DNA of 37,991 nucleotides from Akkermansia muciniphila (GTDB lineage: Bacteria; Verrucomicrobiota; Verrucomicrobiia; Limisphaerales; SXQI01), in assembly GCA_945867235.1 (NCBI GenBank), contig CAMBHS010000010.1, forward strand, positions 1-37,991, given 5' to 3'. The notes beneath the pieces were generated by a model. It did no database searches and had not been told where the DNA came from. It saw only the letters and a list, made by a program, of their open reading frames with translations. Below, piece by piece: positions 1-26,006 of this stretch (within the stretch, counting starts at the first letter, position 1; every line of letters starts with the position of its first letter). Position numbers and translations under genes: made by a program.

Positions 1-279
1 GAATTTCAACGCGAGGTCTTCAGGATGACGGAAGTATTCCTCGCGATATTCTTCCGCCGCCATCCACACGGCAAACACGTTCGTCAAATCCACCTCACGC
101 CAGCCGTGCCCGGCAGCTTTCGTCCGATGTTCGAACTCTTTCAATTTCACGAGCAACCGCCGCTCATCCTCCTTCGGATACACCACAAAGATGATGCGTT
201 GCGCCCCAGCCAGATTGCGCTGCCAAGGAGCGAAAATATGCCGCTCGTATTGCTCTGCCAAATCGTCAATGCGTGACAC
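1..279 (-). CDS. brxB: BREX protein BrxB (DUF1788 family), N-terminal 93 residues
   Basis: The frame opens with GTG at 279 and stays open to base 1, so the gene continues beyond the left edge. The protein starts V/M-SRIDDLAEQYERHIF, followed by PWQRNLAGAQRIIFVVYPKEDE and GHGWREVDLTNVFAVWMA. From memory this matches the start of DUF1788 proteins, which are BrxB of BREX phage-defence systems. BrxB is a small soluble component needed for BREX, with no agreed enzymatic role. The start lies 14 bases inside the end of the upstream gene, so the two are probably translationally coupled. The order brxA-brxB is that of type I BREX operons, in which brxC, pglX, pglZ and brxL usually follow. Those would lie left of the window. 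No alternative ATG is near, and the GTG fits the family N-terminus well. Confidence 0.85.
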   Translation of the reverse strand, partial: MSRIDDLAEQYERHIFAPWQRNLAGAQRIIFVVYPKEDERRLLVKLKEFEHRTKAAGHGWREVDLTNVFAVWMAAEEYREEYFRHPEDLALKF

Positions 280-1024
280 GCGAATCCTTTATCTCTTGTG
301 TGGTTAAGATATTGGTGAACCCGATTTCGATCACGTCTCCCGCCGCTCTCAAGTCCAGTCCGCTCAGCCGTTTCGCCTCTGCCGCGATGTTCCGCAATTC
401 TCCCGGCGACGAATCCAGCACGCGAGTCCAGCTCGTTTTAAACAATCGGCCACCTCGCAGTCCTTCCAAATAGCCAAGCATCAGTGCATAGGCCGTCACC
501 AAAGGAGTGGGGCGGATCAACTGCCGGAATTTACGCGCACGGCCTCGGAGATGCCCGCTCTGCGTCCACGAGGACGAAACATTGCGCACCACCTTGTCGA
601 GTGTCGCGTCATTCAACCGGGTGCCAACAGAAGTGCGGATGGCGTCGGTGATTTTCTGGCGGGAAAGTTCCTCGCCCGAGGTCATGGCGAGAATTGGTTC
701 GGCGGTAGCCCGCAGAAGGGGATCGCGGGCGAGGGAGCACAACAGAGCCAGCACGGGACGCCCCGGCACGTCATTCTGCCAGAACAGGCGCAAGACCCGG
801 AATAAGGGGATCGTCGGTTCGAGGGCGTAAAGTTCGGATAAGTGTTGAGCTGTGATCTTCCGGTTCGCCCCCGTCTGCTTGCCGAGGGCATTTCTCTCGA
901 TGATGGCGGACAAATAGTCCGACCGACCTGCGACAAGGGGAAGACTGTTCAGCAACAAAGAAAGCTCCTCCAGCATGATGGTTCGACTAGAATGAGTTCC
1001 AATCGCCCCGCTTCTAAATCCCAT
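266..1024 (-). CDS. brxA: BREX protein BrxA-like (DUF1819-like), first gene of the operon
   Basis: The product is about 252 residues, with no signal peptide or membrane segment. It contains THSSRTIMLEELSLLL near the N-terminus, ELYALEPTIPLFRVLRLFW and LLCSLARDPLLRATAEPIL in the middle, and SSSWTQSGHLRGRARKFR followed by YALMLGYLEGLRGG near the C-terminus. I recognise this pattern as the DUF1819-type protein that precedes DUF1788 in BREX loci. BrxA is a small DNA-binding, winged-helix-type protein in characterised systems. The longest frame starts at GTG 1051, but the predicted transcription start is near 1052, so ATG 1024 is preferred. ATG 976 is a third option, but it would remove the conserved-looking THSSRT segment. 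No clear Shine-Dalgarno is seen. The family assignment comes from pattern memory and the brxB neighbour. The operon role is inferred. Confidence 0.75.
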   Translation of the reverse strand: MGFRSGAIGTHSSRTIMLEELSLLLNSLPLVAGRSDYLSAIIERNALGKQTGANRKITAQHLSELYALEPTIPLFRVLRLFWQNDVPGRPVLALLCSLARDPLLRATAEPILAMTSGEELSRQKITDAIRTSVGTRLNDATLDKVVRNVSSSWTQSGHLRGRARKFRQLIRPTPLVTAYALMLGYLEGLRGGRLFKTSWTRVLDSSPGELRNIAAEAKRLSGLDLRAAGDVIEIGFTNILTTQEIKDSRVTH

Positions 1025-1058
1025 TTTCTGCGGTAAGTTTTCGGCTCGCACGTCATCA

Positions 1059-1086
1059 TTAATAGCACGGAATTACGAACTGTCAA
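1059..1086 (-). promoter_or_regulatory. Sigma70-type promoter of the BREX operon
   Basis: On the minus strand a perfect -35 box TTGACA (1086-1081) is followed by a 16-base spacer and TATTAA (1064-1059) as -10, four of six matches. Transcription would start near 1052. That leaves a leader of about 28 bases before ATG 1024 and almost none before GTG 1051. Confidence 0.6.
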
Positions 1087-1116
1087 TTGCACCGGCAAGT
1101 TTGCCGGTGCAATTGA
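1083..1116. promoter_or_regulatory. 34-bp perfect-arm dyad overlapping the BREX -35 box (likely operator)
   Basis: The arms TCAATTGCACCGGCAA (1083-1098) and TTGCCGGTGCAATTGA (1101-1116) are exact reverse complements separated by GT. The dyad covers the inner part of the -35 box and extends upstream, where a repressor or class II activator would bind. It is not followed by a T-run on either strand, so a terminator is unlikely. WYL-type BrxR regulators are known to bind inverted repeats upstream of BREX operons. No regulator gene is in the window, so the link is inference. Confidence 0.6.
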
Positions 1117-12428: not shown

Positions 12429-12716
12429 CCCCTCAGAAACACTGCTTTTCTTTCGGAAACAGCTGTCCCAATTATTGGTGACACGAACTCGCCCGTGTTT
12501 GTCTTTTATTGGCAATTATTGCATTTCCAATTCAAAAAACGGGTTTTGATGCGAAACGCAGGCTAATAACACTTGATGCTCCTATTCAAGTTCGTAGGCT
12601 TCCTTCGTTACCGACGAATTGTTTAAGCAACGAGAAATTGTTTGCCATGGGATAGTGGCGTTCAGCTCGGTGCAATTTTTCTGTTGGAAGCAAGCAACTT
12701 AAACACGAATATTCTA

Positions 12717-15700
12717 ATGAAAAAGTCTAGCTTACATATAGTAGCCGCGTTGGCGGCGAGTGTGTGTGTTTCGATGGCGCAGGCATTGCCTGGGGCACCG
12801 GAAGATAACGGCCTCGCCCCAAAGTCCAGCACCTTGTTCCTCAACCCCCCATCCGTACTGAATAATGGCCATACGGAAAGTATAGGTATCGGTATCGGAG
12901 CCTCTGGCAATGTTATTGTGGGCTGGGAAGATGACGGCGATAACTTGGCGGACGCCGAGGCGATTTGGACGATACTGGATTCAACGGGCAGTTTCGTGAC
13001 GCCAGAGACAGATCAAGTATCTCTGTCACCTGATTTTACCGGCATGTCGATTAGAAATCGGTTTTTATCCTATTTCCGGGCAGATGGATCTGCGATTTCT
13101 GGATGGACCTCTTGGGGTCCCAAAATCAAGGCCAACCTGTTCGGAGAAGGATTCGGCATGGGTGCCACCTCCTTCGGTTTAGGTACTGAAATTGAGGCAT
13201 TTGCGGAAATCCAAAACGATGCTGGCGGTGGGGGTGATTTTGCATCGGTTCAATTGCTTTCCAAAGTTGGGGCTCCATTGGGACTTGTAAGCGGGATGAG
13301 CGACACCGATGCAGAACCAGCGGGTGACGCTCGGATCGGCGACTGGGATTTCCTCAAGACAGGTAATATCGTCATTGTGAGTGAAAGCCGCCAAAATGGC
13401 GACTTGACCGAGCGCTTCGGAGGAGCTGTAGCTAATCGCCACGCGGGTTATCGCATCGTTACCCCAGCGGGTGTCGAGGTGAAGCCCTATTCCTTGCTGA
13501 GTGAGAAGACTGACAAGGTGGAAATGTGGCATGGAGTTGGTGTCACGGCAAACGGGTTTGCTGCACGGTTCGCTTCTTTAGGGGCGGCAACAGTGCGGAT
13601 GTTTGATAACCTCGGCAACCCAACCAGCACCAATATCAACATCGCGGAAGCCACAGGATTTGCAATCGCAGGCGGCGGCGGACGCGGGGACGGCACTGGA
13701 TTCCATGGAAATGGTAAAGACGCCTATGTCCTTGCTTCAGCAGGCACTGGACCTGATGGCACCCCACAAGTTTGGGTGACTGTGTTGAATGCAAATGGAA
13801 CGATTCGTTATTCCAAACCGGCCATTACCGATGTGCCTCTGACCAACCCCGACCGAGTGGATGCGGCGATCGATGCAAACGGGCGGGTAATAGTAGCTTT
13901 TTCTGATGCAGGCTTTACGGGAATGAAAATAATTTGCGCCCGCATATTGAAAGCAAACGGGGACGGTGAAACAGGAACCTTTTGGGTGAGTGAAGTCGAG
14001 AATCCAAACGCTTGGGCGGCTTATGATGCGAGCACACCCCGTGTGGCTTGGCGCAATGACTTGGTGGCGATCACTTGGATCAGCAAAAACGGACCTGAGC
14101 TTTCGCCAGAAGGAACAGAAATCAAAACGATTGCCGTGCGGTTATTCGGTACGTTCAAACCCGGCAGTGCTGAAGGAGAGGGTCTGACCCGCATTGTGAA
14201 GGACACGCCCCTGATCATCCCTGAGTTTAACGCATTAGGAAACTGGGAACCCCAAGCGAGCGTGATCGGAACCAGCACCTTCCTTATCGAAGGAAATACC
14301 TATGCCACGGATGATATCACTGCACAGCGTTACGTTGTGGGCATCCAACCTGCCGCTGGCGGTGCCATGCGTTTGGGTGACGCTTTCCATTCGGACGATG
14401 GCAAACCTTTTACCAGCAAGATCAACTACTCCCGCCAAAACGGAAATCCGGGACGTGTCGCCGGTGACAAACGCCCAGGAGCCGTCAATTTCGTGGCCGG
14501 CGGTGAAGCATCGCCCCATGTCGTTGAGGCTTTCCGTTCGGACTCGCGATGGGATCTTGGGTTCGACCGCCTTGCCGATGGCCGCTACGGGGTTGTTCAA
14601 GCGTTCTCATTGGATACTACCACCTTGGCTCAAAAGCCCTTGCATAAAGCGCTCGACTCCGCTCTGGGTCGTTTGACGGATGGGGTTGCAGCGGGCAATC
14701 AGATCAGCCGTTACGGCGGTGATATCGCCTTCCTTGACAACGGCAATTACGTTTCAGTCGTCCAAGATAACTCTAGGGCGATCTATGCAGATGCTAACGC
14801 CGCCGTGGCGACAATCTTTGCGCCAGACGGAACCGTGGTGAAGGATTCGTTTGTGGTCCAGCCGCGCGATATTTGGTGCAATCTTGCCGCTTACAAAGGC
14901 GGATTTTGCGTTCGTGTTGCTTCCGTCCTCTACTTCTATGACAACGACGGAACACCCAAAGGTTCGGTTCACCAAAGCACCTCGGGCGCAGCGTTTGATG
15001 GAGGTCGCGGCGATGGAACTCGTCTCTTTGCTCACATCAACAGCCCCTACGTTTATCTCGCTGGGAAAATGACAACGGGTGCCATCGTGCAAGTCGCCGT
15101 ATGGGATTCACGAGATCAAACCTTTGTTGATTCAACCTCCGTCAGCGAGCCTGGCTTTACAGGTGATGCGGATCGCGTCAATGGTGCTGTAGATGCATTG
15201 AACCGATTAACAGTCGCTTGGGTCAGCCAACCCATCGGATTCGTGAAGCAACAAGTTGCCGCACGCGTCCTGAAGTTGGATGAAACCACCAAGAAACTCA
15301 CACCGGTGACATCGAGCTTCTTCGCCTTCCTGAACTCCTCCACGGAGGGAACGATTCGATCCGTCGGAATGTCGGTGGCGATGACCACCAAACAAATCTG
15401 TATCGCGGCGAAGGGTGAAATCAACCGGGATAACAAGCCAGAGGAAGGTGCCAACACACCTACGGAAGTAAACTTCTACACCGTGTTGAGCCATCCAGTT
15501 CCTGCTGAAGATCCAACGACTCCTGTGAGCAGCGGCGCCCTGCCCTCGCTTGCGGTAACGCAAAACGGTGGAAACATCGTTGTTTCATGGCCCTCGGCCA
15601 TCGCCGGGTTCACGCTTCAAAGTGCCTCCAGCCTCTCGAGTCCGATCTCGTGGAGCACGGTCGCCGGTGTCGCCAACAACTCAGTCAGCTTACCTGCCTC

Positions 15701-15731
15701 AGGCACGACCTACTTCCGGCTGAAGAAATAA
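12717..15731 (+). CDS. Large secreted protein with internal duplication and Ig-like C-terminal domain, function unknown
   Basis: The 1004-residue product starts with a signal peptide (KKSSLHIVAALAASVCVSMA, then QALPGAPED). ATG 12717 is chosen over 12642 for that reason. Two stretches, roughly residues 205-430 and 665-865, align with each other. Each has a GD(W/I).FL..GN block, a GGRGDGT motif and DRV(D/N)xA(I/V)DAxxR(V/L)xVA(F/W). This suggests a duplicated beta-rich module, perhaps propeller blades. The last 75 residues (NIVVSWPSAIAGFTLQSASS to TYFRLKK) form the Ig-like C-terminal domain seen at the end of many Verrucomicrobiota surface proteins. I know no enzyme motif in it. The gene has its own terminator and 288 bases separate it from the dehydrogenase gene upstream. 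A surface or extracellular role is inferred. Confidence 0.8.
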   Translation: MKKSSLHIVAALAASVCVSMAQALPGAPEDNGLAPKSSTLFLNPPSVLNNGHTESIGIGIGASGNVIVGWEDDGDNLADAEAIWTILDSTGSFVTPETDQVSLSPDFTGMSIRNRFLSYFRADGSAISGWTSWGPKIKANLFGEGFGMGATSFGLGTEIEAFAEIQNDAGGGGDFASVQLLSKVGAPLGLVSGMSDTDAEPAGDARIGDWDFLKTGNIVIVSESRQNGDLTERFGGAVANRHAGYRIVTPAGVEVKPYSLLSEKTDKVEMWHGVGVTANGFAARFASLGAATVRMFDNLGNPTSTNINIAEATGFAIAGGGGRGDGTGFHGNGKDAYVLASAGTGPDGTPQVWVTVLNANGTIRYSKPAITDVPLTNPDRVDAAIDANGRVIVAFSDAGFTGMKIICARILKANGDGETGTFWVSEVENPNAWAAYDASTPRVAWRNDLVAITWISKNGPELSPEGTEIKTIAVRLFGTFKPGSAEGEGLTRIVKDTPLIIPEFNALGNWEPQASVIGTSTFLIEGNTYATDDITAQRYVVGIQPAAGGAMRLGDAFHSDDGKPFTSKINYSRQNGNPGRVAGDKRPGAVNFVAGGEASPHVVEAFRSDSRWDLGFDRLADGRYGVVQAFSLDTTTLAQKPLHKALDSALGRLTDGVAAGNQISRYGGDIAFLDNGNYVSVVQDNSRAIYADANAAVATIFAPDGTVVKDSFVVQPRDIWCNLAAYKGGFCVRVASVLYFYDNDGTPKGSVHQSTSGAAFDGGRGDGTRLFAHINSPYVYLAGKMTTGAIVQVAVWDSRDQTFVDSTSVSEPGFTGDADRVNGAVDALNRLTVAWVSQPIGFVKQQVAARVLKLDETTKKLTPVTSSFFAFLNSSTEGTIRSVGMSVAMTTKQICIAAKGEINRDNKPEEGANTPTEVNFYTVLSHPVPAEDPTTPVSSGALPSLAVTQNGGNIVVSWPSAIAGFTLQSASSLSSPISWSTVAGVANNSVSLPASGTTYFRLKK

Positions 15732-25973: not shown

Positions 25974-26006
25974 AAAAAAGGCACCGACAATTAAAGTCGG
26001 TGCCTT
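25974..26006 (-). terminator. Terminator of ilvN-ilvC
   Basis: On the minus strand, AAGGCACCGAC and GTCGGTGCCTT form an 11-bp perfect stem (25978-25988 with 25996-26006) over a seven-base loop, followed by six T. It lies 23 bases after the ilvC stop. Confidence 0.9.

Follow-up and report, generated by a model that had tools for sequence, protein, structure and literature searches.

A conserved palindrome upstream of brxA is a candidate BrxA-read operator of BREX operons

In the BrxR-controlled BREX systems of Acinetobacter NEB394 and E. fergusonii pEFER, the first BREX gene has an inverted-repeat operator at its promoter, and the BrxR site of Acinetobacter NEB394 overlaps the -35 element (PMC9122589). 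Type I restriction-modification islands are likewise subject to a defence-operon autorepressor, RptR, which acts at palindromic promoter sites (PMC12255303). The BREX core protein BrxA has itself been linked to DNA: the E. fergusonii protein (PDB 7ZGE) has two helix-turn-helix (HTH) motifs and binds dsDNA according to its authors (PMC9240713), a 2026 comparative study did not exclude a regulatory role for the protein (PMC12839542), and its recognition specificity and DNA target were described as unknown in a biochemical paper of 2026 (PMC13326643). Our literature search, which covered openly accessible journal papers, returned no report of the box described here or of BrxA autoregulation. The BREX locus that we analysed resembles the BrxR-controlled systems in having an inverted repeat at its promoter, and the Acinetobacter site in the overlap with the -35, but it differs from these systems in arm sequence and spacing, has no brxR gene, and has the core protein BrxA as its presumed regulator. 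It also differs from the RptR systems, since RptR is a dedicated regulator that binds TAGCTA repeats, whereas the candidate here belongs to the defence machinery itself.

The DNA under study (37,991 nucleotides, henceforth the window) is one whole contig (G000:C10) of a MAG of 199 contigs that is 96% complete. The original prediction placed the start of a BREX operon at its left end, and profile searches bear this out: the minus strand encodes brxA (266..1051; 261 residues; PADLOC BrxA PDLC02450, E 7.7e-95) followed, as in BREX type 1, by the N-terminal 93 residues of brxB (1..279, GTG start at 279; PADLOC BrxB PDLC02469, E 8.6e-37, residues 1-91 of 184), which is cut off by the contig end at position 1. 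The brxA start codon is most likely GTG 1051, as the reading frame stays open and conserved as far as this codon, homologues with 91, 79 and 74% identity align to the N-terminus, and the PADLOC BrxA model scores better from here than from ATG 979. The contig ends inside brxB, and searches of the MAG for brxC and pglZ found neither, using the profiles PF08665 and NF033441 and then, because PglZ and BrxC of this kind belong to divergent PADLOC families and empty profile searches were insufficient alone, the proteins of relatives. In the closest relatives brxC follows brxB, and the G196 genome has the order brxC-pglX-pglZ-brxL. Two other box-bearing BREX operons have a gene that by eye looks TIR-like between brxC and pglX (L066:12584-13624 and L087:10810-11862), and the matched stretch of one further brxA (L102:1206-1955) contains an in-frame stop, indicating a decayed gene or an assembly error.

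Upstream of brxA, positions 1083..1116 form an inverted repeat of 16+2+16 nucleotides, the putative BrxA operator. It had been described as a near-perfect 34-bp dyad; its arms are in fact fully perfect, making it the longest perfect inverted repeat of the window, with the longest arm in 20 whole-window dinucleotide shuffles reaching 11. The core of the dyad, ACCGGCAAGTTTGCCGGT (1091..1108), is an A-class variant of GCCGGC-WAGTTT-GCCGGC. On the minus strand, a TTGACA -35 hexamer (1081..1086) begins 4 nt after this 18-bp core and shares 4 bp with the outer arm, and a TATTAA -10 hexamer (1059..1064) follows after a 16-nt spacer, so that the promoter reads leftward into brxA. Both the promoter and its overlap with the dyad thus agree with the original prediction. 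A generic promoter scan did not list this promoter, since it ends in A instead of T; we accept it because it is conserved in relatives, the same geometry being matched in 11 other loci. GTG 1051 sits 7 nt past the -10, and the brxA mRNA is therefore probably leaderless.

The remainder of the window holds several features that we record in passing. Adjoining the dyad, an open stretch on the plus strand (1246-1449, containing HPFHIVKNLFGHRKVRYRGLAKNGHQLYTLFGLANVVIGG) resembles by eye the C-terminal remnant of an IS5-type transposase. Two 95-nt inverted arms (1862-1956 and 2792-2886), 78% complementary and 835 nt apart, lie in DNA with no convincing genes and are possibly a decayed mobile element. 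A 1029-residue open frame with a TTG start (12642-15731, plus strand) has no Pfam match, and a perfect 11-bp stem with a 7-nt loop (25978-26006), lying between the genes for argininosuccinate synthase and a convergent ketol-acid reductoisomerase, is probably a bidirectional terminator.

The first sign that the dyad is conserved came from brxA homologues of the same order, several of which are preceded by a related palindrome. We then assembled a locus set by scanning GTDB genomes for BrxA peptides alone, without regard to the DNA upstream, which yielded 80 loci (79 usable), and searched within 260 nt upstream of brxA. The resulting box has the consensus TTTN-GCCGGC-WAGTTT-GCCGGC-NAAA, and GCCGGC-NNGTTT-GCCGGC is matched at 15-16 of 16 positions in 43/79 loci, compared with 0/1580 shuffles and 0/2530 other stretches of the same loci. 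The core in the window, a palindrome of the GCCGGC-N6-GCCGGC type, scores 14/16. Recurrence upstream of related BREX operons, which the original prediction proposed as a check, thus extends far beyond Verrucomicrobiota. Both orientations of the box are about equally common (36 versus 32), and five loci (L121, L127, L149, L152 and L168) have two boxes about 50-90 nt apart upstream of brxA. A genome-wide repeat or regulon was ruled out: the dyad is present as a single copy in this MAG, Moorella and Carboxydocella each have one exact site per genome, at brxA, and those exact core matches away from BREX that we inspected elsewhere in the order lie in or beside unrelated reading frames. Searches of plasmid sequences with a 30-mer of the box and of phage records with BrxA returned no match.

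Where a promoter is recognised, the box takes one of two positions relative to it: immediately upstream of the -35, or across the transcription start. TTGAC is found 4-5 nt past the core in 10/66 sites, against about 0.3 expected, and in twelve loci, including the window and one locus recognised by eye (L086), the -35 starts at a distance of 13-14 nt from the box centre. In these same twelve loci the start codon lies 39-41 nt past the core, at the predicted transcription start, and their mRNA is therefore probably leaderless. In another set, made up of Firmicutes, Desulfobacteraceae and others, the -10 precedes the box centre by 18-31 nt, which places the box over the transcription start or closely behind it; at about a third of all box sites no good promoter was recognised. 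Both placements suit steric repression, and where the box lies just before the -35 it may also serve activation.

We asked how the box is distributed over the phylogeny of BrxA. In a maximum-likelihood tree it is present in 61/63 rows of one clade (support 99/97) and in 0/17 rows of the sister group, where L156 has a shortened GCCGGC-N5-GCCGGC. The 61 include L135, whose box is degenerate, and L129 and L138, whose boxes had been dropped from the tree labels by our filters; the two clade members lacking a box are L120 and L133. By label the box-bearing clade spans about a dozen phyla, some of which may be wrong since many loci are metagenome bins. The box is thus co-inherited with the operon, and its reader should therefore be co-inherited as well.

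This expectation bears directly on the regulator. The original prediction implied a BrxR/WYL protein, and the dyad could indeed serve a BrxR-type WYL repressor, as the operators of Acinetobacter and E. fergusonii do, with the gene lying elsewhere. Known BrxR operators are likewise inverted repeats located at BREX promoters, with one overlapping the -35 (PMC9122589, PMC9122601), and the MAG has one WYL gene, on another contig. That gene, however, is of a kind found widely in the order, whether or not BREX is present, the repeat is of another sequence class, and no brxR (WYL) gene is present at the locus. No BrxR homologue was found next to any box-bearing brxA. Searches of whole genomes detected none in this MAG, in 6/7 other box-bearing genomes of the order (the seventh, G239, has only a 79-residue WYL-domain match), or in Moorella, Carboxydocella and Sedimenticola. 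Conversely, a BrxR-type gene stands beside brxA only in L150, L159 and a Pseudomonas veronii plasmid, and all three lack the box. Nor does any other gene family recur upstream of brxA, the largest being found in 4/79 loci, compared with 68 for brxB and 73 for brxC downstream. The known Acinetobacter site, ATACCGTAAAAATAATTTACTGTAT, is unlike the box, and the covariation described below points to BrxA. A BrxR-type reader is thus strongly disfavoured, and we regard it as very improbable. At one locus lacking the box, a small helix-turn-helix-like frame lies directly upstream of brxA (L158:5690-5974, plus strand) and could encode an alternative regulator.

Box variants alter both half-sites together, and we compared them with the alignment columns of BrxA, BrxB and BrxC. 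A change of base 1 from G to A pairs with BrxA T63 to N/V in 7/8 loci versus 0/44 canonical loci, and with R70 to H/N/K in 6/8 versus 0/44, while a change of base 4 from G to T pairs with K153 to T/S in 5/5 versus 0/44 (Fisher p 6e-8, 1e-6 and 5e-7, respectively, all ignoring relatedness). Because relatedness is ignored in these tests, we used BrxB and BrxC, which share the history of the operon, as controls, together with branch-by-branch parsimony. Neither protein has such a pattern, the best p being 1e-2 for BrxB and 2e-3 for BrxC (over 1142 positions). By parsimony, 4/4 base-4 changes and 4/4 K153 changes fall on the same branches, two reversions included, and 4/5 base-1 changes fall on branches where residue 63 changes. 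The BrxA of the window (N63, H70, K153) fits its box variant, which has A at base 1 and G at base 4; one locus, L145, is an exception, as its A-class box goes with T63/R70. The canonical box is accompanied by T63/R70, and by K153 where covered, in four further loci (an Azospirillum plasmid, two IMG/VR contigs and G086); as all four are canonical and none variant, they check the rule one way only. We also considered that our locus search pattern LNDATLDK, which contains K153, might have biased the set, and excluded this because 79/80 tree rows carry a second pattern, SSWTQSGH, by which they can be found without the first.

The covarying residues map to two helices of a predicted BrxA model (pLDDT 93): residues 63, 66 and 70 lie in helix 61-75, spaced as one helix face, and residue 153 in helix 148-165. 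A sequence search recovered no solved BrxA structure, and it was by fold search only that the best PDB match was found, the E. fergusonii BrxA 7ZGE (Foldseek probability 1.0), which is of the same family and fold as the BrxA of the window.

From position, inheritance, the lack of a linked regulator and covariation together, all of them read from sequence, we consider it likely that this BREX operon is autoregulated, with the dyad as its operator and the product of its first gene as the reader. Two other explanations must be weighed against this, the first of which dispenses with a sequence-specific duplex site altogether. The palindrome might act as a hairpin or cruciform, either in a structured mRNA leader or as extruded DNA. 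The window dyad folds very stably as a single strand (-20 kcal/mol, z -8.4), and across loci outer arm positions 1, 3, 4 and 5 remain complementary beyond shuffles while their sequence varies, which contact of a protein with two half-sites would not by itself require and which counts against BrxA as the reader. Yet in the twelve loci with a flanking -35, of which the window is one, the -35 comes after the dyad, which would thus not be part of the mRNA, the two loop orientations are equally common, the window dyad has neither the stem with T-run of an intrinsic terminator nor an Rfam match, and base pairing alone leaves the coupling to BrxA residues unexplained. We therefore hold a purely structural role to be quite unlikely.

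The box might instead be bound by another BREX protein or by the complex once assembled, serving for instance as a place of loading or assembly, and BrxA would then provide specificity from within the complex. Such a site would accord with a box that travels only with BREX core genes and with the reported ability of Acinetobacter BrxA to bind BrxC and to inhibit the binding of DNA by BrxC (PMC13326643). Against it, the BrxB and BrxC columns lack covariation, and the box is placed to occlude the promoter wherever one is recognised, which a loading site would not need. This explanation, too, appears unlikely to us.

BrxA thus remains our preferred reader and probably represses its own operon, as judged from these alignments; we infer physical binding, two molecules per site, repression over activation, and the release signal. 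In such a mechanism, two BrxA molecules would bind the two GCCGGC-type half-sites, in each of which helix 61-75 (residues 63, 66 and 70) would read base 1 and helix 148-165 (residue 153) base 4. Bound BrxA would cover the -35 region in the window, or the -10/start region in other lineages, and thereby block RNA polymerase. Expression of the operon would stay low until BrxA is depleted, as might happen through assembly of the BREX complex or through incoming DNA; the idea of release by assembly we base on the reported inhibitory binding of BrxC by Acinetobacter BrxA. Two published observations count against this reading, although the BrxA proteins concerned may or may not belong to the box-bearing clade: the E. 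coli protein did not discriminate between a BREX-site probe and a scrambled one (PMC11842806), and that of E. fergusonii, a monomer in the crystal, bound lambda DNA (PMC9240713). The two clade members without a box and the mismatched locus L145 also speak against it. More tentatively, BrxA may combine two roles, being a core BREX part and also repressing its own operon in a sequence-specific manner by a readable code (63/66/70 for base 1, 153 for base 4). Its recruitment to BrxC or incoming DNA would free the operator, so that transcription would report how much of the BREX machinery is free or engaged; we see this fuller scheme as a possibility rather than an expectation.

These results provide BrxA with a specific candidate DNA target and with predictions at the level of single residues. 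They also suggest how control may be exerted in BREX operons that lack BrxR, and autoregulation by BrxA would tie the assembly of the system to its expression.
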